47,145 bases of DNA, taken from positions 1 to 47,145 of the forward strand of contig NZ_VOOR01000044.1 of assembly GCF_007993045.1 (NCBI RefSeq). Direction: 5' to 3'. The position numbers and the translations under genes are program-made. Under the pieces are notes generated by a model that made no database searches, had not been told where the DNA came from, and saw only the letters and a program-made list of their open reading frames with translations. This stretch comes from Phaeodactylibacter luteus (lineage in GTDB: Bacteria > Bacteroidota > Bacteroidia > Chitinophagales > Saprospiraceae). Every line of letters starts with the position of its first letter. Within the stretch, counting starts at the first letter, position 1. Of this stretch, positions 34,533-47,145 are shown in pieces.

Positions 34533-36245
34533 CTAAGTACTCAATTGAGCGATCCTCCAAATAGCCGTTGCCTGACGGGCCAGCCATTTTTGGTGCGCAA
34601 TGATTCGGTCGGGCCCCCACCGATCATTCTCATTGGCTATCCGTTGAGTGATTGCGAATTCACTTTGTGCAAAAGCCTCCCGCTTGGTTTCGAACCCTTT
34701 ATTGCCGATCTCCCGATTTGCCGATTTGTTGAGTATCGTCATATTGCCCAGACGGTACAGGAACTGTTCGTGATCTCTGTCGCCGATATGATCCCATGCT
34801 TCCTGTACCGACTCCGGCATGATGTGCTCAATATTGTACGCATCGCTCTCAAAATCATAGCTGCTGCCCGAAGTATGCCGTTCGATCTCGAACAGGATGT
34901 ACCGGATGATCCGCTTGTTTCGGGCCTGAGTCGTCCGCATAACCTTATCTGTAAAATCGCCTCTGAATTTATCATCGGCAATATAAATGGGCTTTAAAGC
35001 GGTAAGCACTTGCTGTAACCCCCTGATTTCGTCAGATGAAAGCTGCACAGCAACCCGGTTGTACACTCTTTCCTGCTCATTCGCCGCTAAACTTCCGATG
35101 ACATTGTACCGGAATGAAATGATACAACAGGCGCGCAGCAAGCCCGTAAAGTCTCCCGGCTGTAGTTTGTGGTGAGCGGCCAGCAGCAGTGGGTACAATT
35201 GCCGGACATTGAACATCCGCAGGTACTTGATATATTCAGCCTGCTCACTATTCCAAAGGCTGTCCTCCGCATGAGGCAAAGCGGCATAGACCTGCGCATT
35301 TTGCTCTACATCCCGGATCAAATCAAAGACCGCTTTTTTTCCGGCTATCCGCTCCCTTACCCGTTTAAAAAGTTCTGCATGGCGTACAAACCGATTTTTA
35401 CTGTTCCAATAGGCACGCAGGAAGTCGGGCAGGCTTTCGTTACCGATCACCCCAACCAGCCGCTCCCACTGATCTTCGATTTCGCGCAGTTCATGCTCAT
35501 CGCCACCCTGACTGTGCACCACCGAAAACAGGTAATTCTTCAGCAGGTCAGTCGAGGAGAGTTTGACCCCTCTCGCATTTAAGGTCTCAAAAACCTTGTA
35601 GGCATTAAGCTCGTCATTTACCGTGATGACCGTGAAGAAGAGTTTGTCCGATAAAGAATCAATAAACTGTGCCAGTTCCGCTCCCTTTTGATTGGAGGCA
35701 AAGCGCTTTCTCACCTGATCATAGAGCCAGTCGTAAGCCTTCCGCATCAGATGCTCCGTTGCTTTCAGGTTTCGTCTTGGAGCCGGTTCAAGTGCCACCA
35801 GATAGCGCTGATACAGGTTGTTGTTATTCCGGTTGAGGTACAGCTTGCTTTTTGGAATGAGCGTGACCGGATCAAGATAGCCAATAAAGGCACTGCGCAA
35901 TTGATCTAAGCGCCGCTGATTCGGATCTGACTCAATATCATTATCAATCAGATTCTGCAAATTCCCTAAAACCGCCAGCACCAATATACTTAAAGTCGTT
36001 AAACGCTGCTGACCGTCTATGACATCAAAGTTTTTGCTGTCCCTGGATTGCAAGACCAAATACCCCATATAGTGCTCCTGCTCTCCGCTTTCTTCAAACA
36101 GCCCCTCAATATCCTGCCATAGGTCGTCCCACTCCGTGCTCGTCCAGCTGTAGTCGCGCTGAAAGCGGGGCACGGTGTAAATCAGCCCGTTTCCCATAAG
36201 TTGCCGGTAGGTTCTGTTGGAGGCACCTATGTTCATCACGCTCAC
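34533..36245 (-). CDS. DUF262/DUF1524 protein (GmrSD-like type IV restriction enzyme)
   Basis: The 570-residue protein fuses a DUF262 domain with DVIDGQQRLTTLSIL (DGQQR motif, about residues 75-90) and a DUF1524 HNH-type nuclease domain near the C-terminus with YNIEHIMPES and LGNMTILNKSANREIG. GmrS and GmrD are these two halves, here in one chain, as in many bacteria. GmrSD-type enzymes cut phage DNA with modified (glucosylated) cytosines using NTP; some other members serve as partners in defence systems. It lies at the edge of the defence island and is divergent from the CYTH gene. Fusion and motifs are seen; specificity is inferred. Confidence 0.88.
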   Translation of the reverse strand: MSVMNIGASNRTYRQLMGNGLIYTVPRFQRDYSWTSTEWDDLWQDIEGLFEESGEQEHYMGYLVLQSRDSKNFDVIDGQQRLTTLSILVLAVLGNLQNLIDNDIESDPNQRRLDQLRSAFIGYLDPVTLIPKSKLYLNRNNNNLYQRYLVALEPAPRRNLKATEHLMRKAYDWLYDQVRKRFASNQKGAELAQFIDSLSDKLFFTVITVNDELNAYKVFETLNARGVKLSSTDLLKNYLFSVVHSQGGDEHELREIEDQWERLVGVIGNESLPDFLRAYWNSKNRFVRHAELFKRVRERIAGKKAVFDLIRDVEQNAQVYAALPHAEDSLWNSEQAEYIKYLRMFNVRQLYPLLLAAHHKLQPGDFTGLLRACCIISFRYNVIGSLAANEQERVYNRVAVQLSSDEIRGLQQVLTALKPIYIADDKFRGDFTDKVMRTTQARNKRIIRYILFEIERHTSGSSYDFESDAYNIEHIMPESVQEAWDHIGDRDHEQFLYRLGNMTILNKSANREIGNKGFETKREAFAQSEFAITQRIANENDRWGPDRIIAHQKWLARQATAIWRIAQLST

Positions 36246-36369
36246 TTAATGGTGCAGTCACCGTCTGTTTAATAGGGTGAAAATAGGGAAAGCGTAATAA
36301 AAACAGGCGCAGTTGCCCCGTTTTTCCTATTTTGGCAGGCGACCCTCACACGACGAACTGAACCATCGT

Positions 36370-37380
36370 ATGTTTGAAAACCTCCTTCCGGACAAAGCCA
36401 GCGGAGTAATATACAGCGCAACCAAATACAGCGGGCAGATCTGCCAGCCAATCTTGATGTTCCTGATTCTTTTCTCCTTCAGCCGGGCGGTGGCTCAGGA
36501 GGCGCCGGGCCGTGGTATTGATGCCCTTCGGATTGAAAACGAAGTCAAACTCAGCGTACCCGAAGCCCTGTCGGATTCCGTTTGGAATTACCTGCTGCAG
36601 GCTTACCTGGACGGCACGCCTGACTTCCTGCGCAATCATATCCCGCCCTTCAGCTATCAGGTTGCCACCGACTCCTTCGTTGACCAATACTACGACACTC
36701 ACAGGTTCAGCCTGTTGCAGCTCCGCAGCGGTGCCCGCTACCGGCAGCGGTTCTCCCTTTCCGGCGCAGGGGGCGAAAAAGACGGCCGGGAGCTGATACA
36801 GCTCAAAATGGATAGCGAAGGCAGCAACGCCCTCAGCCGGGGGGAATACAAATACGATGTGGAGCACTATCAAAAAGCGGAGGAGCCCCTCGATTACCAC
36901 CCCTTTATGGGGCGGGTGAAAAGAGGGCAGCGCGACGAACTGATTGGCCGGCTGAAAGAATATGGCATCAACCCCGAAAGCTTGTCTCCTACCATCCGTA
37001 TCACACAAATCAGAAGGCGGCTCTACTTTTTTACGGGCGACCGCCCCTTTTCCACCCTCACCCTCGATGCTGTAACGGCGGATTATCAGGGGAAAGGCAC
37101 TCATTTCCATGAACTGGAGCTGGAGCTCAATGAAATACGCTATACCGAAAGCCAAGCTTCCGAAAGGGAAGCTATGGAGGCTGTCAACAACCTAGTGCAG
37201 GAGGATATCCTGCGGCGCTTCCCGGGCATCGTACAAGATCAGACTCCAAAATACAACAAGGCCGCTACTGCGATCGGCATCTCCGCCGGGGCTTCCAATA
37301 CCCGCTACTACCTCCTCGGGCTCATAGGGCTGCTACTGGCTGGCTTCCTTTTCTGGTGGTTGCAGACAAGCCGCCGCTGA
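36370..37380 (+). CDS. CYTH / triphosphate-tunnel-like protein with membrane anchor
   Basis: The start could be 36370 (MFENLLPDKASG) or 36457 (MFLILFSFSRAVAQ); both lead into one hydrophobic N-terminal segment that looks like a signal peptide. The first position of the frame (36313) overlaps likely promoter sequence. The CYTH domain begins with IENEVKL, an ExExK signature, and continues with YYDTHRF, RYRQRF, ELIQLKMDSE and ELELELNEIRY, alternating charged strands that would line the tunnel. A C-terminal hydrophobic helix (YYLLGLIGLLLAGFLFWWLQ) ends the protein. Relatives hydrolyse or make inorganic triphosphate, polyphosphate or ATP derivatives. With both a signal-like start and a C-terminal anchor, the domain should face the periplasm, which is unusual for the family. 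Confidence 0.7.
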   Translation: MFENLLPDKASGVIYSATKYSGQICQPILMFLILFSFSRAVAQEAPGRGIDALRIENEVKLSVPEALSDSVWNYLLQAYLDGTPDFLRNHIPPFSYQVATDSFVDQYYDTHRFSLLQLRSGARYRQRFSLSGAGGEKDGRELIQLKMDSEGSNALSRGEYKYDVEHYQKAEEPLDYHPFMGRVKRGQRDELIGRLKEYGINPESLSPTIRITQIRRRLYFFTGDRPFSTLTLDAVTADYQGKGTHFHELELELNEIRYTESQASEREAMEAVNNLVQEDILRRFPGIVQDQTPKYNKAATAIGISAGASNTRYYLLGLIGLLLAGFLFWWLQTSRR

Positions 37381-37409
37381 GCCGGTAGCCCGGAAAATAT
37401 TAAATTGTA

Positions 37410-37421
37410 ATGCTTAAGCAT
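37410..37421. promoter_or_regulatory. Perfect 12-bp palindrome before the methyltransferase gene
   Basis: ATGCTTAAGCAT reads the same on both strands and ends five bases before the methyltransferase ATG at 37427. The position suits an operator or a site controlling expression of the island's first gene. The preceding ATATTAAATTG stretch may be the promoter. Confidence 0.4.
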
Positions 37422-37426
37422 CAACC

Positions 37427-40183
37427 ATGAACGCAGTAGAAATAGAAGAAGCCGTCTCCCAACTGGTCAGCCAACCCTTTGACCCAGACGAGTTTCCCTT
37501 TGCCTTCCTGGAAGCCTATGGGAATAAGGAAACGACCGTCAAGCGCCTGCGGAAGGGCAACTCCAATAAGTCTAAGATGGAAGGCGGGGTGCTGCAGCGC
37601 AACAACATTCACATTGCGACCTGCGAACCGGGCGCGGTAGCGGATACGCTGCGGCAGCTGCAGGAAGCCCGGGAAACCGCCAAAAATAAAGCTAAATTCG
37701 TACTCGCTACCGATGGCGAAGAGTTGCAGGCCGAAAACCTGAACAGCGGAGAGACCCTGGCGTGCGCCTACCCCGATTTCCATCAACACTTTACTTTCTT
37801 CTTTGAGCTGGCGGGCATCAGCACCGTAAAGGAGATACGGGAAAGCTCCTTCGACATCAAAGCCACGGGGCGGCTCAATAAGCTGTACATGGAGCTGCTG
37901 CGCGCCAATCCTGACTGGGCGACTCCGGAGCGCAAGCAGGACATGAACCACTTCATGGCCCGCCTCATCTTCTGCTTTTTTGCGGAAGACACGAGTATTT
38001 TTGCTGGCGATAACCTCTTCACGGGCACAGTGGAGCAGATGAGCGCGCCGGATGCTTCCAATATGCACGAGATCATCGGGGAGCTGTTCCGGGCGATGGA
38101 TGTCAAAACGGAGGAGCGCGAAGCACAGGGTATCCGTACCTGGGCGCGCAAATTCCCCTACGTCAACGGGGAGCTGTTTTCCGGGGCGACGGACTGCCCC
38201 CGCTTTACCAAGATTGCCCGCTCTTACCTGCTGCATGTGGGGCGGCTTGACTGGCAGCAGATCAACCCGGATATCTTCGGCTCTATGATACAGGCGGTGG
38301 CGGACGAGGACGAGCGGGGCTCCCTGGGGATGCACTATACCTCCGTGCCCAATATCCTGAAGGTGCTCAACCCGCTCTTCCTGGATGAGCTGCGGGAGCA
38401 ACTGGAGGAAGCGGGCGACAACCCCCGTAAACTGCTCAACCTGCGCAAGCGCATTGCCCGCATCCGCGTTTTTGACCCGGCCTGTGGCTCGGGCAACTTC
38501 CTGGTCATTGCCTACAAGCAACTGCGGGAAATCGAGCACGAGATCAACCTCCGGCGGGGAGAGCCGGACCGCCCCACCGAAATTCCCCTGACCAACTTCC
38601 GGGGCATAGAGATCAAAGGATTTTCTGCCGAAATTGCCCGCCTGGCGCTCATCATAGCCGAGTACCAATGCGATGTGCTCTACCTGGGGCAGCAGCTGGC
38701 CCTGGCGGAGTTCCTGCCGCTGGATGCGGAAAACTGGATTACCTGCGGGAATGCGCTGCGCCTGAACTGGCTGACGGTTTGCCCGCCTACGGGTACGGGG
38801 GTAGAACTAGGTGGAGATGACCTCTTTAGTGCACTACAGCAGCAAGCGAATATTGATTTTGAGAATGAGGGTGGGGAAACGTTTATTTGTGGGAATCCGC
38901 CGTATTTGGGCTCTACCTGGCAGTCTAAAGAGCAGAAATCGGACCTGAAAGAAATTTTTGCAAAGTACACGAAAAGCTGGAAGTCGCTGGATTATGTGGC
39001 AGGCTGGTTTATGAAGGCAGCTGAGTACGGTACGCATACCAATGCCTCTGCCGCTTTTGTATCAACGAACTCGATCTGCCAAGGGCAGCAAGTGCCAATT
39101 TTATGGCCTTTGATTTTTAAAAAGGAATACGAGATTAGTTTTGCTCATACTTCTTTTAAGTGGGCTAATTTAGCGAGTTATAATGCGGGGGTGACTGTTG
39201 TTATCGTTGGGATTTCAAGTCAACCCAATAAGGTGAGACGGTTATTTTCATTGGATGAGCAAAATGAAACGATTGAGAAGAAGGCCGAAAATATCAATGC
39301 TTACCTTACTCCATCTGAAAATGTAATCGTTCAGAAAATATCCAAACCGATGTCTGAAGTCTACGAAATGCGGTTTGGTAATAAACCAGTGGATGGTGGG
39401 AACCTTCTTTTATCTAAAGATGACTTATCAAGTCTCAATTTCAATAATATTCAACAAAAGAAGTTCATTCGCCGAATTTATGGATCTGCTGAGTTTATCC
39501 GTGGATTGAGCCGCTATGTACTCTGGATAAAAGATGACCATTTGGAAGAAGCTTCTATGATCCCTCCCATTTCTAAGCGTATTGAAGCAGTAAAAGAAAT
39601 GCGATTAGCAAGTCGGGATAAAAGCGCAAATAAAATGGCGGAGCGTGCTCACCAAATGCGCGAAATGAATATATCAGAAGTATGGACGATTGTAGTACCG
39701 AGGACATCCTCAGAAAGGAGAAGGTTTCTACCTACAGGGTTAATCGGAAACTATGCTACGGTTACAAGTGAAACATTTGCTCTCTTCGACGCCCCCCTCT
39801 GGAACCTAGCCCTCATCGCCTCAAAACTCCATCTGGTATGGATAGCCACCGTTTGCGGTAAGTTAAAAACCGACTATCGCTACTCCAACACCCTCGGCTG
39901 GAACACCTTCCCCGTCCCCCAGCTGACTACCAAAAACAAGGAAGACCTGACCCGCTGCGCCGAAGACATCCTGCTCGCCCGCGAGCGCCACTTCCCAGCC
40001 ACGATAGCCGAGCTGTACGACCCGGAAAAGATGCCCGAAGACCTCCGGCATGCCCACGAGCGCAACGATGAGGTGCTGGAGCGCATCTACATCGGCCGCC
40101 GCTTCAAAAACGATACCGAGCGCCTGGAAAAGCTCTTTGAACTGTATACGGAAATGACTGCAAAAAAATCGGATAGATCATGA
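37427..40183 (+). CDS. N6-adenine DNA methyltransferase, MmeI/COG1002-like, with restriction-type architecture
   Basis: The 918-residue protein has an N-terminal ~300-residue domain (FPFAFLEAYGNKETTVKRLR, then HFMARLIFCFFAEDTSIFAG) found in MmeI-like enzymes. The methyltransferase core holds motif I FDPACGSGNFL (Asp about 350) and motif IV NPPY at 490-493, the signature of N6-adenine methylases. The C-terminal third contains the target-recognition region and ends in a helical segment. Whether the N-terminus still cuts DNA is unclear; I see no complete PD-(D/E)XK set. The gene is mosaic: about 38,820-39,780 is AT-rich (35% G+C in one counted line) between flanks of 58-65%. It overlaps the next gene by four bases (ATGA). 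Confidence 0.9.
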   Translation: MNAVEIEEAVSQLVSQPFDPDEFPFAFLEAYGNKETTVKRLRKGNSNKSKMEGGVLQRNNIHIATCEPGAVADTLRQLQEARETAKNKAKFVLATDGEELQAENLNSGETLACAYPDFHQHFTFFFELAGISTVKEIRESSFDIKATGRLNKLYMELLRANPDWATPERKQDMNHFMARLIFCFFAEDTSIFAGDNLFTGTVEQMSAPDASNMHEIIGELFRAMDVKTEEREAQGIRTWARKFPYVNGELFSGATDCPRFTKIARSYLLHVGRLDWQQINPDIFGSMIQAVADEDERGSLGMHYTSVPNILKVLNPLFLDELREQLEEAGDNPRKLLNLRKRIARIRVFDPACGSGNFLVIAYKQLREIEHEINLRRGEPDRPTEIPLTNFRGIEIKGFSAEIARLALIIAEYQCDVLYLGQQLALAEFLPLDAENWITCGNALRLNWLTVCPPTGTGVELGGDDLFSALQQQANIDFENEGGETFICGNPPYLGSTWQSKEQKSDLKEIFAKYTKSWKSLDYVAGWFMKAAEYGTHTNASAAFVSTNSICQGQQVPILWPLIFKKEYEISFAHTSFKWANLASYNAGVTVVIVGISSQPNKVRRLFSLDEQNETIEKKAENINAYLTPSENVIVQKISKPMSEVYEMRFGNKPVDGGNLLLSKDDLSSLNFNNIQQKKFIRRIYGSAEFIRGLSRYVLWIKDDHLEEASMIPPISKRIEAVKEMRLASRDKSANKMAERAHQMREMNISEVWTIVVPRTSSERRRFLPTGLIGNYATVTSETFALFDAPLWNLALIASKLHLVWIATVCGKLKTDYRYSNTLGWNTFPVPQLTTKNKEDLTRCAEDILLARERHFPATIAELYDPEKMPEDLRHAHERNDEVLERIYIGRRFKNDTERLEKLFELYTEMTAKKSDRS

Positions 40184-40602
40184 ACCCACATCGGAATGTA
40201 GAAGAAAAGCTTTACACGCAAATAGGGGAATTGCTTTCCCTCGCGAGAAGAAAAGTGGTCAGTCAGGTCAATCAGACGATGGTCGTCACCTATTATGAAA
40301 TCGGTCGGATCATCGTTGAAAATGAGCAAGGGGGAAATGAACGGGCGGAGTATGGTAAAGGAATCCTGAACGGGCTTTCGAAGCGTTTGTCCCAGGATTT
40401 TGGCAGAGGGTTCTCAACGGATAATTTGGAGAACATGAGACGGTTCTATTTGACGTACTCAAAATCCGAGACACTGTCTCGGAAATCTGAACTTCCTGAT
40501 TTTCGGTTAAGCTGGTCCCATTACCTCAAACTAATGAGAATTGAAGACGAGGCTGGGTACAGCGTCTCCTTTGGCAGTGACCATAAAAAAGTACAAGCAT
40601 GA
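40180..40602 (+). CDS. Truncated DUF1016 (YhcG N-terminal domain) protein
   Basis: The 140-residue product matches the N-terminal winged-helix part of DUF1016/YhcG proteins (YTQIGELLSLARRKVVSQVN, TYYEIGRIIVENEQ, LSKRLSQDFGRGFS, LSWSHYLKLMRIEDE). Full-length members of ~340 residues continue into a PDDEXK nuclease; here the sequence leaves the family after RIEDEAG and stops 14 residues later, so the nuclease is missing. Both borders are ATGA overlaps (with the methyltransferase and with the helicase), so the gene is translationally locked into the operon. It may be a remnant kept for coupling, or a DNA-binding or assembly subunit. G+C is intermediate (43% in one counted line). Confidence 0.8.
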   Translation: MNPHRNVEEKLYTQIGELLSLARRKVVSQVNQTMVVTYYEIGRIIVENEQGGNERAEYGKGILNGLSKRLSQDFGRGFSTDNLENMRRFYLTYSKSETLSRKSELPDFRLSWSHYLKLMRIEDEAGYSVSFGSDHKKVQA

Positions 40603-42650
40603 CCCCTAGAAAAAACATCCCATCCGTTGCCGTCCACTACAAAAGCACCGGCAGCTCCATTACTTCCAATGAGCTGGGTATGCGCGCCATGCAGGAGCGG
40701 GCCTACGAAAAGCGGGGGGAGCAATACCTGCTGCTCAAATCGCCCCCCGCATCTGGCAAAAGCCGGGCGCTGATGTTCATTGCGCTGGACAAGCTGAACC
40801 GGCAAGGTATCAAGCAGGCCATCATTGCCGTGCCGGAAAAATCCATCGGTTCCAGTTTCGCCAATGAGCCGCTGACAAAGTTTGGCTTTTACTACGACTG
40901 GGAAGTTGCGCCAAAGTGGAACCTGTGCAATGCGCCTGGGGAAGACGGCAGCAAGGTGAACGCCGTGAAGTCATTCCTGGACAGTGAAGACCGGGTGCTG
41001 GTCTGCACCCACGCCACCTTCCGCTTCGCCGTGGAGCGCTTCGGCATCGAGCCCTTTGACAATCGCCTGATTGCCATTGATGAGTTCCACCACGTAAGCG
41101 CTGATGAAAACAACGTGCTGGGTACGCAGCTCAAGCAGTTTATCGAGCGGGATAAAGTCCACATCGTGGCCATGACTGGCTCCTACTTCCGGGGCGACGC
41201 CAACCCGGTGCTTATGCCGGAAGACGAGGCGAAGTTTGAACCCGTCACCTACACCTACTACGAGCAGCTCAACGGTTATCAGCACCTCAAAACGCTGAAT
41301 CTTGGCTACTACTTCTACAGCGGGGCCTATGCTGATGAAATTCTGAGCGTACTCAACCCCAATGAAAAGACCATCATCCACATCCCCAATGTAAACTCCC
41401 GGGAAAGCATGGGCGATAAGATCAAGGAAGTGGATCACATCATCCACGAATTGGGCGACTGGCAAGGTGCCGACCCGGAGACGGGTTTCTATTTGGTAAA
41501 AACCGCCACCGGCAAAGTCATCCGCATTGCCGACCTGGTCGACGACGACCCGAGCAAGCGCAACCGGGTAGCCGCTGCGCTGCGTTCGCCCGAAGCCAAA
41601 AAGAACCGGGACTATGTGGACATCATTATCGCCCTGGGCATGGCCAAGGAAGGCTTCGACTGGGTATGGTGCGAGCACGCGCTGACGATTGGCTACCGTT
41701 CCAGCCTCACCGAGATTGTGCAGATCATCGGGCGGGCTACGAGAGATGCGCCAGGTAAAGTTCAAGCCCGTTTTACCAATCTGATTGCTGAGCCTGATGC
41801 TTCTGAGGATGCCGTCACAGATGCCGTCAATGATACCCTAAAAGCCATCTCCGCCAGCTTGCTGATGGAGCAGGTATTGGCGCCCCGTTTCAACTTCACG
41901 CCCAAAAAAGCCGATAGCGGCCCGGTCAAAGGCTACGATTACGGGGAAGAAGGCTACGACCCCAATAAGGAAAACATAGGCTTCAATGAAGAGTCCGGTC
42001 AGTACCAAATTGAGATCAAAGGACTGACCGAGCCCAAAAGCGAGGATGCCAAACGCATCTGCAAGGAAGACCTGAACGAAGTGATTGCCGCCTTCGTACA
42101 AGACAAGGAAGCCGTAGGCCGGGGCCTGTTTGATGAAGAAGCGGTACCACAGGAGCTGACCCAAATCCGCATGGGCAAGATCATCAAAGACAAATACCCC
42201 GAGCTGGATTCGGAGGATGTGGAGTCGGTGCGCCAACACGCTATTGCCGCGCTGAACCTGACGCAGAAAGCCAAGGAAATCATCAACGGGGACGAGGGGC
42301 TCAGCGCAAAAGCCAATACAGCACTGATAGACGGCATCCGTAAATTTGCCATGGACGTGCGCGAGCTGGATGTAGACTGGATCGACAGCATCAACCCCTT
42401 TAGCGAAGCCTATTCCATTCTGTCCAAAGCCATGACCGAGAGCAGCCTCAAGGCGATGGCAGAAGTCATAGCCGCCAAAAAGCACAACATTTCCGTAGAA
42501 GAGGCAAGGGATTTGGCCAAGCGGGCGTTAAAGTTCAAGCAGGAACTCGGCCGGCTCCCGGACATCAAGTCTTCAGATCCCTGGGAGCAGCGCATGGCGC
42601 AGGGTATCGCGGTATTGGCAAGACTAAAAGCGGAACAATCGAATGGCTAA
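40599..42650 (+). CDS. SF2 DEAD/DEAH helicase of the restriction-like operon
   Basis: The 683-residue protein has a Walker A variant KSPPASGKS (residues 47-55), motif II DEFHH at about 161-165, motif III MTGSYF, motif V IALGMAKEGFDWVWCEHAL and motif VI QIIGRATR. These are the two RecA domains of a type III/type I-like restriction helicase. After about residue 440 comes a charged helical region without a visible nuclease motif. The last ~60 residues hold an FKQELGRLP module also seen in the next protein's N-terminus. It should use ATP to translocate on DNA and bring the methyltransferase and nuclease together. It overlaps the following gene by eight bases. Confidence 0.9.
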   Translation: MTPRKNIPSVAVHYKSTGSSITSNELGMRAMQERAYEKRGEQYLLLKSPPASGKSRALMFIALDKLNRQGIKQAIIAVPEKSIGSSFANEPLTKFGFYYDWEVAPKWNLCNAPGEDGSKVNAVKSFLDSEDRVLVCTHATFRFAVERFGIEPFDNRLIAIDEFHHVSADENNVLGTQLKQFIERDKVHIVAMTGSYFRGDANPVLMPEDEAKFEPVTYTYYEQLNGYQHLKTLNLGYYFYSGAYADEILSVLNPNEKTIIHIPNVNSRESMGDKIKEVDHIIHELGDWQGADPETGFYLVKTATGKVIRIADLVDDDPSKRNRVAAALRSPEAKKNRDYVDIIIALGMAKEGFDWVWCEHALTIGYRSSLTEIVQIIGRATRDAPGKVQARFTNLIAEPDASEDAVTDAVNDTLKAISASLLMEQVLAPRFNFTPKKADSGPVKGYDYGEEGYDPNKENIGFNEESGQYQIEIKGLTEPKSEDAKRICKEDLNEVIAAFVQDKEAVGRGLFDEEAVPQELTQIRMGKIIKDKYPELDSEDVESVRQHAIAALNLTQKAKEIINGDEGLSAKANTALIDGIRKFAMDVRELDVDWIDSINPFSEAYSILSKAMTESSLKAMAEVIAAKKHNISVEEARDLAKRALKFKQELGRLPDIKSSDPWEQRMAQGIAVLARLKAEQSNG

Positions 42651-43851
42651 GAAGGACAAGTTTACGAAAGAAGATGAGGACCTGCTGGCAGAACTTGGCG
42701 TAGAGGTAGAGGCCAAAAAGGCCAAAAAATATACGGCGAAGGAGGAGCGCATCATAGCCGGTTTTGAGGAAATCCAAAAGTTTGTGGAAGAACACGGGCG
42801 GTTGCCACAGCACGGCGAAGAGCGGGACATCTTTGAGCGCCTGTACGCCGTACGCCTTGACCGTATCCGGGAACAAAAAGAATGCCGGGAACTACTCCAA
42901 GACCTGGACACGCAAAACCTGCTCACCGCTCAGCAATCCGCCGACCTTTCCATACCCGATGACATAAACGACGATGAGCTGCTGGAAGCCTTGGGCGTGG
43001 AGGTGGATAGCGACGCTTCCATCACCAAGCTGAAGCACGTGCGGTCAAGTGCCGATAAGCGCGCAGTGGAAGAAGTCGCCAACCGTACCCGCTGCGAGGA
43101 TTTTGAGCAATTCAAGCCGCTGTTTGAGCGCGTGCAAAAGGAGTTGGATGCGGGTATCCGCGAGACCATCCGCTTCCGCAAAGACGCCGGTTTTACCAAA
43201 ACGGAACTCAAAAAGGCCCAATTCGTGATCGTGGGCGGCCAAATGGCTTATATCGCCGAGGTTGGGGAGTCCTTCAAAGCCCCGAACGGGGAAGAAGACG
43301 CAAGGCTGCGCGTCATCTACTCCAACGGCATGGAAAGCAATATCCTGCTGCGCTCGCTCATCCGGGCCATGTACAAAGACGAGACGAGCCGTTTTGTTAC
43401 CGACCCCAAGCTGGGCGGCTTATTCTCCGGCGAGATTAGCGAGGACGATCAGTCGAGCGGAACGATTTATGTTTTGCGCAGTCAGTCCACGCATCCTACC
43501 ATACAAGAAAGCCGGGACGTCATCCACAAGATTGGCGTAACCGGTTCCGATATTAAGAAACGGATCGCCAATGCCAAAAACGAGCCCACATTCCTCATGG
43601 CGGATGTGGAGGTCGTGGCTACTTATCAGCTTGCGAACATCAACCGTTTCAAGTTGGAGCGGCTCATCCATCAGTTTTTTGACCATGCCCGGATTGATGT
43701 CGAGATTAAGGACCGGTTTGGGAAGCCGGTACGGGTGCGGGAGTGGTTTTTGGTGCCGCTTTTTGTGATTGATGAGATGGTGGAGAAGGTTATGGATGGG
43801 ACGATTGGGGATTATTATTATGATGTGGGGGCGGCGCGGTTGAGGCGATAG
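42643..43851 (+). CDS. GIY-YIG nuclease (T5orf172/MUG113-like) of the restriction-like operon
   Basis: The 402-residue protein has an N-terminal lysine-rich segment, then a FVEEHGRLPQHGEE module (about residues 46-59), a helical middle, and a C-terminal GIY-YIG domain. This starts GTIYVLRSQ (residue ~273), continues HKIGVTGSDIKKRI (H295 to R304) and ends with the LERLIHQFF segment holding the metal-binding glutamate. The spacing fits the T5orf172 branch. GIY-YIG enzymes cut DNA with one metal ion. It is the only evident nuclease of the first four genes, so it is the likely cutting subunit. It starts inside the helicase gene (eight-base overlap). Confidence 0.9.
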   Translation: MAKKDKFTKEDEDLLAELGVEVEAKKAKKYTAKEERIIAGFEEIQKFVEEHGRLPQHGEERDIFERLYAVRLDRIREQKECRELLQDLDTQNLLTAQQSADLSIPDDINDDELLEALGVEVDSDASITKLKHVRSSADKRAVEEVANRTRCEDFEQFKPLFERVQKELDAGIRETIRFRKDAGFTKTELKKAQFVIVGGQMAYIAEVGESFKAPNGEEDARLRVIYSNGMESNILLRSLIRAMYKDETSRFVTDPKLGGLFSGEISEDDQSSGTIYVLRSQSTHPTIQESRDVIHKIGVTGSDIKKRIANAKNEPTFLMADVEVVATYQLANINRFKLERLIHQFFDHARIDVEIKDRFGKPVRVREWFLVPLFVIDEMVEKVMDGTIGDYYYDVGAARLRR

Positions 43852-43898
43852 CCCATGTAAGTTTAAATGATTACCTAAGTTTTAATTTCACTGTCATT

Positions 43899-45185
43899 AT
43901 GAAAGTAATTTGTTTTAACGACGAGAAATATCCTAACCCAAAAGGTGAGGGGGATAAAGATTTGGTTATTGAAACTTATAACCTTTTTAGGGAGTCAACA
44001 ATTCTTGATGCAGAACTTTTAGTTTGGAATCTAAGTTCGACTTACTATTTTCTACCGGTAGATAAGCGTAGACCAGAGGTTTACACAGTAAGTAACCTAG
44101 ACTACTATAAGCCAGGGCTTGAAAGAAGGAGGAAGGAAATAAAAGAATTTTTAGAAAGGGGGAGAGTGATAATTATTCAAAAGCCATATGTAAAACCGAT
44201 AATCTTAAAGACTGAAGAAGGGGAGGAATTAACTCTTGATTTCTATAGTTTTATGGGTATAGAAAAGCCTATTATAGAGACTGTTTCTGGAGATAGAATG
44301 ACTACTCGGAGAGGGGATGAAGCTAAAGTATTTCTAAGCAAACATTCCCATTTATTGGTTTACGAGAATGAATTCATTAAGAGCTATGGTAAGCCACTAT
44401 TTTTTATTAATGATACAGATCATATCGTAGGTCAATACATTATTAAAGAAAGAGGCGTGATTATTTTTATGCCCACTATTAGAAATTTGGATGTAAGTAA
44501 TGTAACTCGTTTTTTCTATGATCTGCATAGTTTCGCACTGAGCTTGAAAAATGACCTTGGATTAAATAGAGGCGAGTTTTTGATGCCCGAATGGGCTTAT
44601 GGAGTTCAAACAAAGGAAGAAGTTTCTCTAAGAAAAAGGCTGGATGAGATTGAAAAATTAGGTCTTGAAATAAAAAGAGAGATAGACCTTTTTGAAAAGC
44701 AAAAAACCCTTTTTACTGGCACTGGATTTGAACTGGTGGAGATTGTAGAGTATGCTCTTCGGGAGCTTGGGTTTAATGTTGTTGCCAAGGATACTTTCAA
44801 GGACGACTTAATTATTTCAAAGGATGATGAAATAGCTATTGTCGAAATCAAAGGCGTCAAAAAAAGTGCAACCCAGCGGCATGCCGTACGGCTGCATAAA
44901 TGGGTGACAGACTACTTTTTTAGGCACGAAGTCAATCCTAAAGGCATACTGATCGTGAATACCTATAAAGATACACCTCCAGGCCAGAGAAAAGAGATTG
45001 ATTTTCCATCACAAATGATGGAATATGTCAATCAAATGAAAATATGCTTAATGACGGGAGTTGAGCTTTTTATTCTGATTACGGCTTTCAAAACAGGGAG
45101 AATGTCGCAAGAAGAAATAGAGAAGTTGCTTTTTGAGACTGTAGGGCAAGTTAAACTACCGTTTTCGCTAGAGGATCTCTACTAA
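43899..45185 (+). CDS. Unknown protein with C-terminal PD-(D/E)XK nuclease-like domain
   Basis: The 428-residue protein has an N-terminal ~220 residues of alternating strands and helices (DAELLVWNLSSTYYFLP, FLERGRVIIIQKPYV, KERGVIIFMPTIRN). They recall a flavodoxin- or GATase-like Rossmannoid sensor, but I do not recognise a family. A short coiled coil (~residues 245-275) leads to a C-terminal restriction-like fold: EIVEYALRELGF, then DDLIIS with Asp302/303, then VEIKG with E316 and K318, the E-D-ExK order. The gene is AT-rich (37% G+C in one counted line) and foreign to its neighbours. It starts 47 bases after the GIY-YIG gene and ends 10 bases before the STAND ATPase gene. Confidence 0.65.
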   Translation: MKVICFNDEKYPNPKGEGDKDLVIETYNLFRESTILDAELLVWNLSSTYYFLPVDKRRPEVYTVSNLDYYKPGLERRRKEIKEFLERGRVIIIQKPYVKPIILKTEEGEELTLDFYSFMGIEKPIIETVSGDRMTTRRGDEAKVFLSKHSHLLVYENEFIKSYGKPLFFINDTDHIVGQYIIKERGVIIFMPTIRNLDVSNVTRFFYDLHSFALSLKNDLGLNRGEFLMPEWAYGVQTKEEVSLRKRLDEIEKLGLEIKREIDLFEKQKTLFTGTGFELVEIVEYALRELGFNVVAKDTFKDDLIISKDDEIAIVEIKGVKKSATQRHAVRLHKWVTDYFFRHEVNPKGILIVNTYKDTPPGQRKEIDFPSQMMEYVNQMKICLMTGVELFILITAFKTGRMSQEEIEKLLFETVGQVKLPFSLEDLY

Positions 45186-45195
45186 AATAGAAGCT

Positions 45196-47145
45196 ATGCC
45201 ACGAAAAAGGCTCACCCTTAAGGACAAGCAAAAGAAAAAGCAACAGACCAGTTTTGTTGGGAGAACGGAGCAACTCACCGCTTTCCAGGAGAATTTGAAT
45301 CTCAGTGCAGAATCAGATGCCTTTATCAATATTTTCAATATTTACGGGCAAGGAGGGGTCGGTAAAACTACCCTACTGCGCAAATACGAGGACTCCTGTG
45401 GGCGCAAAGATGTTCTGACTGCCTACACCGATGAAGGGGTAAAAGATGTGGTAGATTTCATGGCATCTGTTGCAAGCGAACTGGAAAAGAAAGGCCATCC
45501 GCTGAAAAAATTCAACGAGCGCTATAAAGTCTATCGGCAAAAGAAGCAAGAGCTGGAAGCCGACCCTAAAGCCCCGGAAGGGCTTGCCGTATTTATGGAG
45601 AGTAGTATTGTTAAGAAATCTGTATTAGGCTCAGAAAGTGGGTTCGTAGGACTCATTATGGATATGGTGTACACCAATAGATTATCTAAATATGAGGGGA
45701 AATGGGAATGGGCGAACTTCGTAGCGAAAAAAATCGGCAATAAAGACGAAGTTCAACTTGTACTGGAACCGATTGAGGTACTCACCCCGATTTGGCTGGA
45801 AGGCTTGGTGGATATAGCGGAAGACCAACGGGTATGCTTACTCATTGATACCTATGAAATGGTAAGCACCTTCTTGGACGAATGGCTTTACAAAGTAATA
45901 GATAACCGTTACGCTGATTTCGATGCCAATATCCTGCTGACTATTGCGGGCCGTCATCCACTCGATGAAAACCGCTGGAGCGCATACGCCGAGTTCTGTG
46001 CGGCATTTCCAGTAGATCCTTTTACGGAAGAAGAAGCGAACACTTTTTTAGATCAACGGAAAATTACGGCAGAACCAGTACGAGCCGCTATAAAGAAACT
46101 ATCTGGTAATGTGCCCGTCCTAATGGCCACACTTGCCAAAGCCTCTCCGGATAAAGTGGAAGACTTAGACGACGTCAGCCATCTGGCGGTAGATCGTTTC
46201 CTAAAATGGATAGAAGACCCCAATAAGAGGGTCGCAGCGCTCTACGGAGCTGTGCCTCAGGAACTGAATATAGATGTTCTAAAACAAGTCTTACCAGAAG
46301 ATACTGCAGCGGAAGCGTTTGATTGGTTGCAAAGTATGCCCTTCGTACAAAAGCGTGCCAAACAGTGGGCTTATCACCCAGTAGTACGAGAGCAGATGTT
46401 GAAGTACCTCCGTTTGCGCTCTTTGGAAGATTGGGTGGAACTTCAACAAAAACTGTACGCCTATTATCAAGCTAAGCAATCGGCTTTAAACATTGAACAG
46501 CAGAAGCAGTACAAGAACGAGAATTGGCAACAATTCGCTTTACGTATGCTTTACCATGGCTTCTGCGGGCAGCCGGAAGCTTATTTGCCAACTGCATTGA
46601 ATGCGTTCGTAGCTGCATTGGATGAAAAGCAATCCTTTGCATTAGAAGTCGCCCGGACCTTGCGAGATGCTGAGGTAGATACTGAACTGGCACAGGAGCG
46701 GCAATGGGGAGAAGCGATGGAAAATGCACTGGAGGAATATGACAAAGAACAGTACCGTAAGCTGGAACGCTTGATGAAGCGCTTATTGGATGCTGGTCAT
46801 CTTAATGAGGCGCAACGGCCACTCGCTTATTCCTGGCAGGCTAATTGTTTGAGGCTTTCTGGAGAGTATGAACGCGCGATTGAACTATTCTCTAAGTCAA
46901 TTGGAATAAGGAAAGACTACAAGGAGGCAATTTTTTATCGTGGGCTGTTGAATCTTCATTTTGTTAAATACGAAGCGGCGCTGTCGGATTTCAACCGTGC
47001 TATTGAACTTGATCAGGAATACGGTTGGGCTTTGGCAAATCGAGGAGAAACGTACCGTCAGTTGGGCAAATACGAAGCGGCGCTGTCGGATTTCAACCGA
47101 TTAATTGAACTTGATCAGGAATACGACTGGGCTTTGGTAATTCGA
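45196..47145 (+). CDS. STAND-type NTPase with C-terminal TPR array (incomplete at window end)
   Basis: The frame is open from the ATG at 45196 to the last base (650 codons, no stop seen). After a lysine-rich start the P-loop GQGGVGKTTLL lies at residues 51-61, Walker B at CLLIDT (Asp218), an arginine sensor-like LLTIAGRHP follows, and GNVPVLMATLAKA resembles the GxP motif of STAND/NB-ARC ATPases. A winged-helix-like YHPVVREQML follows. TPRs begin near 46,820, and the last two units (from 46966 and 47068) are 34-residue, 102-base repeats. Such ATPases sense phage products and trigger an effector; here no effector domain is visible before the TPRs, so the adjacent nuclease-like protein may fill that role (inference). 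Confidence 0.85.
   Translation, partial: MPRKRLTLKDKQKKKQQTSFVGRTEQLTAFQENLNLSAESDAFINIFNIYGQGGVGKTTLLRKYEDSCGRKDVLTAYTDEGVKDVVDFMASVASELEKKGHPLKKFNERYKVYRQKKQELEADPKAPEGLAVFMESSIVKKSVLGSESGFVGLIMDMVYTNRLSKYEGKWEWANFVAKKIGNKDEVQLVLEPIEVLTPIWLEGLVDIAEDQRVCLLIDTYEMVSTFLDEWLYKVIDNRYADFDANILLTIAGRHPLDENRWSAYAEFCAAFPVDPFTEEEANTFLDQRKITAEPVRAAIKKLSGNVPVLMATLAKASPDKVEDLDDVSHLAVDRFLKWIEDPNKRVAALYGAVPQELNIDVLKQVLPEDTAAEAFDWLQSMPFVQKRAKQWAYHPVVREQMLKYLRLRSLEDWVELQQKLYAYYQAKQSALNIEQQKQYKNENWQQFALRMLYHGFCGQPEAYLPTALNAFVAALDEKQSFALEVARTLRDAEVDTELAQERQWGEAMENALEEYDKEQYRKLERLMKRLLDAGHLNEAQRPLAYSWQANCLRLSGEYERAIELFSKSIGIRKDYKEAIFYRGLLNLHFVKYEAALSDFNRAIELDQEYGWALANRGETYRQLGKYEAALSDFNRLIELDQEYDWALVIR
46966..47145 (+). 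repeat. 102-bp tandem repeat encoding TPR units
   Basis: Two units (46966-47067 and 47068-47145, the second cut by the window end) share a 32-base identical start and differ at only a few later positions. The near identity at the DNA level points to recent unit duplication. More units probably follow outside the window. Confidence 0.75.

Follow-up and report, generated by a model that had tools for sequence, protein, structure and literature searches.

The window analysed here, a stretch of 47,145 nucleotides (nt) from Phaeodactylibacter luteus (contig NZ_VOOR01000044.1), carries four overlapping genes for a methyltransferase, a DUF1016_N protein, a helicase and a GIY-YIG nuclease, which an earlier note had taken together as a new split restriction-modification (R-M) system. 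Our comparison with related loci indicates that this is probably an R-M-like operon of the DnmA-YeeB-YeeC type, in which the joint between the methylase and helicase genes serves as a swappable slot for accessory, often toxin-like or nuclease-like genes. The claimed four-gene system is thereby corrected to a known cluster, and its odd fourth gene would be one of many interchangeable passengers.

The core genes and their family

All four open reading frames (ORFs) lie on the + strand and overlap by 4, 4 and 8 nt, as had been reported. Judged by families, gene order and the name YeeB on an Acetobacter plasmid match, with the Bacillus subtilis cluster compared by description, three of the four genes are those of the published DnmA(YeeA)-YeeB-YeeC cluster: an MmeI-like methylase without a nuclease motif is followed on the same strand by a helicase and a T5orf172 protein. 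The passages available from PMC7261158 and PMC9973331 describe this gene trio in B. subtilis (dnmA, also called yeeA, yeeB and yeeC), where DnmA makes N6-methyladenine at GACGAG and resembles MmeI with its nuclease motif lacking, the latter being stated by PMC7261158. Morgan 2009, as cited in PMC7261158, suggested that DnmA, YeeB and YeeC form a Type I-like R-M system, and in the part of PMC9973331 concerned with gene neighbourhoods the helicase and T5orf172 families are the commonest first- and second-position neighbours after dnmA homologues. The view that the combination corresponds to no named system was therefore not borne out, except for the DUF1016 gene, by what these portions of PMC7261158 and PMC9973331 describe.

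The methyltransferase ORF (37427..40183, 918 amino acids (aa)) is of the DnmA/YeeA type. Pfam recognises all five MmeI domains in it (MmeI_Mtase, E 1.6e-117; MmeI_TRD, 4.3e-83; plus MmeI_N, MmeI_hel and MmeI_C), in the order N-hel-Mtase-TRD-C of the type IIL MmeI architecture, and among solved structures MmeI is its best relative (5hr4, E 4.3e-141). The motifs FDPACGSGNF and NPPY are present in the translation, and the earlier methyltransferase call was right; what it had overlooked is the full MmeI architecture and the published three-gene cluster. The target-recognition domain (TRD) occupies aa 630-833 (39314..39925, +). The MmeI_N domain (aa 1-159; 37427..37903, +) is still recognisable by Pfam, and no [DE]xK[ST] (PD-ExK-type) nuclease motif was found in the window N-region or in that of 105 of the 107 aligned family methylases, a search that had no intact MmeI as positive control. 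An MmeI-type self-cutting enzyme was rejected on the missing N-domain motif, with the same limit on the control. Because the methylase's own nuclease motif is gone, the N-domain probably docks partners.

The helicase ORF (40599..42650, +, 683 aa) encodes a YeeB-type SF2 helicase/translocase with Pfam matches to DEAD and ResIII, and its motifs GKS, DEFH and the QIIGRATRD region are conserved across 12 diverse helicases. The YeeC-type ORF (42643..43851, +, 402 aa) ends in a GIY-YIG nuclease domain (Pfam T5orf172 and MUG113; aa 273-383, 43459..43791, +), whose signature residues G273, Y276, K296, G298, R307 and E339, in window numbering, are invariant in 127 of 127 aligned nuclease proteins; the R and E are presumably the GIY-YIG catalytic pair. 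Since the helicase and GIY-YIG motifs are conserved, the operon seems to possess intact parts for methylation, translocation and cutting, each on a chain of its own, in keeping with an active split R-M system. The earlier proposal of separate chains with a GIY-YIG nuclease gains support, as an inference, from the absence of the N-region motif in nearly all methylases and the invariance of the GIY-YIG residues. PADLOC alone would file the methylase as type IIG (E 2.5e-291), far ahead of its best DrmMI (3.7e-29) and PglX (1e-8) matches; as it gives the helicase only a weak PbeA match (3.4e-6) and the nuclease no match at E 0.001, such tools may misfile the operon.

Occupancy and turnover of the methylase/helicase joint

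Our survey comprised 137 loci including the window, drawn from 80 genome contigs (the best 80 of 559 matches to the window helicase), 43 viral contigs, 6 plasmid regions and 7 longer stretches, L001-L009 having been replaced by longer stretches or by duplicates before counting. A long helicase match was found in 135 (L137 and L145 were without). In 12 of these the retrieved stretch contained no methylase and in 2 no nuclease, the locus often lying at the edge of a contig; from the remaining 121 we dropped L098, whose methylase is a fragment without its C-terminus. This left 120 loci, or 109 non-redundant operons when clustered at 97% helicase identity. The survey favours close relatives of the window helicase, gene calls were mechanical, and cargo was labelled by its similarity to a small set of representatives.

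The two joints of the operon are occupied very differently. The methylase/helicase joint measures at least 200 nt in 49 of the 109 clusters, 31-199 nt in 5 and at most 30 nt in 55; the helicase/nuclease joint reaches 200 nt in a single cluster (L100, where the first joint is filled too), so that all 48 discordant clusters have only the first joint filled (exact p 7e-15). When the threshold is varied between 100 and 400 nt, 47-49 clusters are counted for the first joint and 0-1 for the second, and the number of filled clusters varies from 48 to 52 with the choice of representative member. Filled slots occur in both subfamilies, in 44 of the 90 close and 5 of the 19 distant operons. The first joint is a 4-nt overlap in 28 clusters (20 ATGA, 8 GTGA), and at the almost never occupied second joint the exact 8-nt overlap seen in the window (42643..42650) recurs in 75 of the 109 operons, which is beyond chance.

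Slot content also changes between near-identical operons. In six of the eight clusters that contain several loci (helicase identity 97% or more), the members differ in content: the slot is filled in L026 and empty in L027/L033, filled in L063 and empty in L045, and filled in L091 and empty in L078; it holds different contents in L084 (family F282) and L096 (F257) and in L118/L119/L130 (90 nt) and L120 (RhuM); and the first cargo differs between L076 and L089. The slots are alike in L110/L111, both empty, and in L121/L122, with the same cargo. Under blastn, the alignment within the methylase gene reaches to within about 31 nt of the stop codon in five of six pairs, ending 262 nt short in L045/L063, and resumes 0-21 nt past the helicase start or, in L076/L089, at the end of the first cargo. 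As these alignments show, cargo enters and leaves the slot as one discrete unit, whose borders fall at the two gene ends or close to them. The TRD-including methylase region likewise breaks the DNA alignment in L084/L096, L078/L091 and L076/L089, so that specificity and slot resemble two modules, each exchanged on its own. A FastTree tree built from the helicases of the 120 loci, many of whose forks have weak support (33 of its 116 inner branches being open), requires at least 32 filled/empty changes, counted without shuffles, and at least 4 changes for DUF1016. A partial second helicase N-terminus lies inside 2 of 55 slots (L076:7144-7350 and L089:5083-5232), in both preceding a Schlafen-AlbA gene common to the two loci.

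In the window, the slot spans 415 nt (40184..40598), and its cargo is a 140-aa ORF (40180..40602, +) in which Pfam reports DUF1016_N only (E 1.2e-32) and not the PD-(D/E)XK domain YhcG_C. The neighbours in the helicase tree (L016, L017, L018, L019, L020 and L022) have empty slots, and L021, the next row of the clade, carries other cargo. Where the empty joint reads methylase-ATGA-helicase, the window insert has ATGA at both ends, at the methyltransferase stop and DUF1016 start (40180..40183, +) and at the DUF1016 stop and helicase start (40599..40602, +). The window protein is 22-27% identical to the slot DUF1016s of L088, L121, L054 and L080, which marks it as a separate arrival, and on the helicase tree DUF1016 entered the slot at least four times. 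YhcG_C is present in the full-length copies of L088 and L121, and the L080 copy, which lies at a contig edge, has a frame of 359 aa; these other slot copies emerged from clustering, a phmmer search with the window DUF1016 having missed them.

This distribution bears directly on the view of the earlier note, in which DUF1016 supplies an indispensable fourth subunit to a new split R-M system. The gene's exact 4-nt overlaps with both of its neighbours would fit such a role, as would the occurrence of DUF1016 in the slots of L054, L088 and L121/L122 and directly before the helicase in L080. However, only 4 of the 109 non-redundant operons carry it, the window's closest kin do without it, and the low identity between copies speaks of separate arrivals, so that we regard an essential subunit as highly improbable; by its distribution, the DUF1016 gene is not a core subunit. 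An obligate four-gene unit was rejected on the same distribution across operons. Restriction of the combination to this genome, which had been named as counting against the proposal, is not what we find for the three-gene core; the exact set with a stand-alone DUF1016_N has no second case among the 120 operons.

The window DUF1016_N might further be a decayed and now inert remnant of a full-length DUF1016/YhcG cargo, which we consider nearly as plausible as its opposite. DUF1016_N matches occur in 104 of 395 genomes of the phylum sample, and most open frames among the matches listed exceed 300 aa, compared with 140 aa here; the Pfam and PADLOC matches stop at about residue 125-131, and the AlphaFold model is poor (mean predicted local distance difference test (pLDDT) 60; best Foldseek E 0.56). 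Yet the frame is open and both operon joints are exact, a minority of the listed phylum frames measure about 120-190 aa as well, and the best PADLOC model, PDLC04797, is itself only 126 positions long. The viral-contig scan found no relative of the window DUF1016_N.

Slot cargo and its relation to the core

The cargo is diverse. Pfam searches with family representatives identified RhuM, Schlafen-AlbA_2, DUF1016 with YhcG_C, GmrSD_N, CoiA-like and DUF559 proteins, AbiEii with DUF6088, ParE with an Unstab_antitox partner, CcdAB, BrnT, DUF4258 with a weak MqsA-like partner and, on the opposite strand in L090, Fic; PADLOC added PDC-S42 and PDC-S67. Six recurrent families (F137, F257, F277, F282, F365 and F325) had no Pfam match. 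By eye, F137 is PD-(D/E)XK-like, F365 PLD-like, F325 GIY-YIG-like and F277, with the motif RNYIH, HEPN-like; searches of PDB sequences with F137, F277 and F365 gave no usable match. F282 has an Rx6H motif and a model with pLDDT 80, and its structure search gave nothing below E 0.001; with HEPN chains among the weak matches (2hsb, TMt 0.63, E 5), a HEPN fold is only weakly suggested. Counted by blastx similarity to representatives over the 49 filled clusters, where one slot may hold several families, F137, SLFN_AlbA and RhuM occur 6 times each, F282, F365, F257 and DUF1016 4 times each, F277 3 times, CoiA, BrnT and F325 twice each and the others once each, with 1 cluster unassigned. A weak relative of F137 (39% identity) lies directly behind a type ISP restriction enzyme (L181:6013-6465), and similar cargo may serve other R-M types.

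Much of this cargo is joined to the gene before it. Of the 48 slots with a + strand ORF of at least 55 aa, 29 show an overlap of exactly 4 nt between the methylase stop and the first cargo ORF (ATGA in 24 of these), and in 39 of the 49 filled slots the longest ORF lies on the operon strand. Two Bradyrhizobium operons, L051 and L077, carry BrnT in the slot (Pfam E 7.9e-24 and 1.3e-23), and the frame directly behind it, in the position that BrnA takes in a brnTA pair (L183 is an example), runs stop-free into the helicase gene, giving a BrnA-like segment fused in frame to the YeeB helicase (L051:8869-9048; L077:4856-5032). The L051 segment matches the N-terminus of annotated BrnA antitoxins (61% over 31 aa, best E 9e-4) and was also aligned with that of L077 and with a BrnA. 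The ribbon-helix-helix domain of BrnA is C-terminal, according to the passage available from PMC11980606, and in the fusions the helicase replaces this domain. The N-terminal part of BrnA would be the toxin-binding one, and the arrangement suggests, though it does not prove, that BrnT is neutralised by the helicase itself in these two operons, a hint that slot toxins may be wired to the restriction motor.

We propose the following working for the operon. As the literature describes for B. subtilis DnmA, the MmeI-type protein of the window would recognise an asymmetric site and methylate adenine on one strand; where unmethylated sites are met, YeeB would translocate on ATP and YeeC would cut through its GIY-YIG domain, to judge from their intact motifs. 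The slot gene would be translated by stop-start coupling between the modification and restriction genes, and might serve as a back-up defence once restriction has failed or been countered, as suggested by analogy with PrrC-type genes in Type I operons and by the BrnA-helicase fusions. It would be tempting to go further and see in the joint a dedicated effector slot, with toxins or nucleases coupled to the motor, most clearly so where the N-terminal end of BrnA is fused to YeeB, a toxin being freed when phage causes loss, degradation or blockage of the motor, and TRD and slot being exchanged independently; we put this forward tentatively, as a possibility that we would not yet favour.

Several points weigh against a functional reading of the slot. 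No result shows cargo and core acting together, and toxin-antitoxin (TA) modules in the slot could simply be selfish. The joint is at most 30 nt long in about half of the operons, and the cargo is in this sense dispensable; all four of the E. coli operons opened, from 99 matching genomes, have empty slots, and the best-80 sampling over-represents the close subfamily, in which 44/90 slots are filled against 5/19 in the distant one. The asymmetry of the joints may reflect constraint on the helicase/nuclease overlap instead of a special role of the first joint. The last cargo ORF overlaps the helicase start by 4 nt in only 14 of the 48 slots, and some cargo decays, as in L117, where RhuM remains have no sizeable + strand ORF and were counted as RhuM. 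The BrnA match is short (31 aa), and Pfam reports no family for the segment. In B. subtilis, the parts of PMC9973331 that deal with deletions report phage killing and plaquing unchanged and restriction not seen under the conditions tested, and the corresponding passages of PMC9973331 and PMC7261158 describe mutants in which no restriction or phage defence was seen.

Alternatively, the slot could be no more than a permissive insertion place, where selfish or unrelated defence cargo hitch-hikes on a mobile operon and uses its transcription without any functional link. We hold this for possible, short of probable. It would account for the great diversity of the cargo and for an empty state as common as the filled one, and some operons (L180, L010, L015) have TA genes immediately before the methylase; in L180 a VapC gene overlaps the methylase start by 4 nt (L180:2859-6004), which means that TA modules couple to the 5' side of the operon too; F282 relatives, moreover, occur away from the operon, near other defence-like genes. 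A merely permissive place fits poorly, however, with the strong asymmetry between two tight joints, with the repeated 4-nt coupling at the 5' end of the cargo, and with the two operons whose helicase carries a fused BrnA-like segment.

The operon might also be a relic of which only the methylase matters, as an orphan enzyme with an epigenetic role, as proposed for B. subtilis. The deletions in that species, which according to sections of PMC9973331 and PMC7261158 left phage susceptibility and transformation unchanged, agree with this idea, and truncated or split copies occur (L013, L014, L098). On the other hand, all four frames of the window are open, the motif residues of helicase and nuclease are conserved, and 99 of 5426 E. 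coli genomes match the helicase gene, 88 of them over at least 80% of its length. In Vibrio crassostreae, deletion of the dnmA or yeeB homologues raised sensitivity to some phages, as a passage of PMC9973331 relates from its ref. 35. On balance we think a relic unlikely.

If the swappable slot is functional, it would amount to a natural collection of effectors that operate alongside restriction, some of them from recurrent families without a Pfam, PADLOC or NCBIfam match, and the BrnA-helicase fusion would allow a direct test of whether a restriction motor can guard a toxin. Because the cargo varies widely, activity may depend on what each operon carries, and this may bear on the silent yeeB and yeeC deletions of B. 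subtilis.

Genomic surroundings and known systems

Slightly upstream of the operon lies a GmrSD (DUF262/DUF1524) gene (34533-36245, -) with a strong PADLOC HEC-06 match, separated from it by one ORF with a CYTH domain; GmrSD gene and operon form a small defence island. Downstream, a 428-aa protein (43899-45185) without any Pfam match, and with a single weak relative on a plasmid, is directly followed by an AAA/TPR protein, STAND-like by eye, that runs off the contig (45196-47145). The remaining genes of the contig look chromosomal (for example, polyphosphate kinase and DNA polymerase III delta). The window helicase has one match in its own genome and, at E 1e-30 or better, matches in 9 of the 395 genomes of the phylum sample, the window's own included. 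It is also matched by 74 Acinetobacter plasmid records, those listed covering only 22-75% of the helicase. In E. coli ECCHD184 (L187), the operon adjoins an ISL3 transposase and pseudogene pieces of signal peptidase II flank both sides, which suggests that the operon there moves as a transposon-like unit.

Compared with known systems, the window methylase shares all five MmeI Pfam domains with the type IIL MmeI family, to which its best solved relative belongs. It differs in that the nuclease-type motif was not found in its N-domain, and cutting would fall to a helicase and a GIY-YIG protein on chains of their own. Type I, Type III and Type ISP R-M systems follow the same logic of methylase, SF2 translocase and nuclease; in the window operon, motor and nuclease are on separate chains and the nuclease is of the GIY-YIG type. 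BREX, DISARM, Druantia and Zorya are marked by signature genes such as PglZ, DrmA/B, DruE and ZorA/B. These systems were rejected as candidates, their signature genes not being among the PADLOC matches listed for the eight proteins of 34533-47145, two of which were judged on the best 25 of 28 and the best 25 of 32 matches. With DUF1016/YhcG (PADLOC candidate PDC-S02), the window cargo clearly shares the N-terminal domain (E 3.3e-46) and, unlike it, lacks the PD-(D/E)XK nuclease domain.

The closest correspondence is to the DnmA-YeeB-YeeC cluster, with the same three families in the same order and orientation as the window core; relative to B. subtilis, the window adds a DUF1016_N gene at the methylase/helicase joint. 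The passages at hand from PMC9973331 and PMC7261158 contain no description of the slot, PMC9973331 mentioning there only unassigned, uncharacterised neighbours. A literature search on these families, which covered the top results, most subscription papers being outside its reach, yielded no description of the slot that we recognised, and its novelty is accordingly provisional. HEPN, RhuM and Fic/DOC genes beside R-M genes have been proposed as further lines of defence (PMC3710099, in the passage available), and PrrC, whose gene lies within a Type IC locus, is set off by the inhibition of restriction (as reviewed in part of PMC12707154). The slot fits such a PrrC-like second-line logic by analogy, in a different kind of operon. 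Like the PrrC/HEPN-type genes of these sources, as far as their passages describe them, it may place a toxin-like gene inside an R-M operon; in contrast to them, the DnmA-type operon has one fixed joint that holds many unrelated families, and two such operons carry an antitoxin-like segment fused to the helicase.

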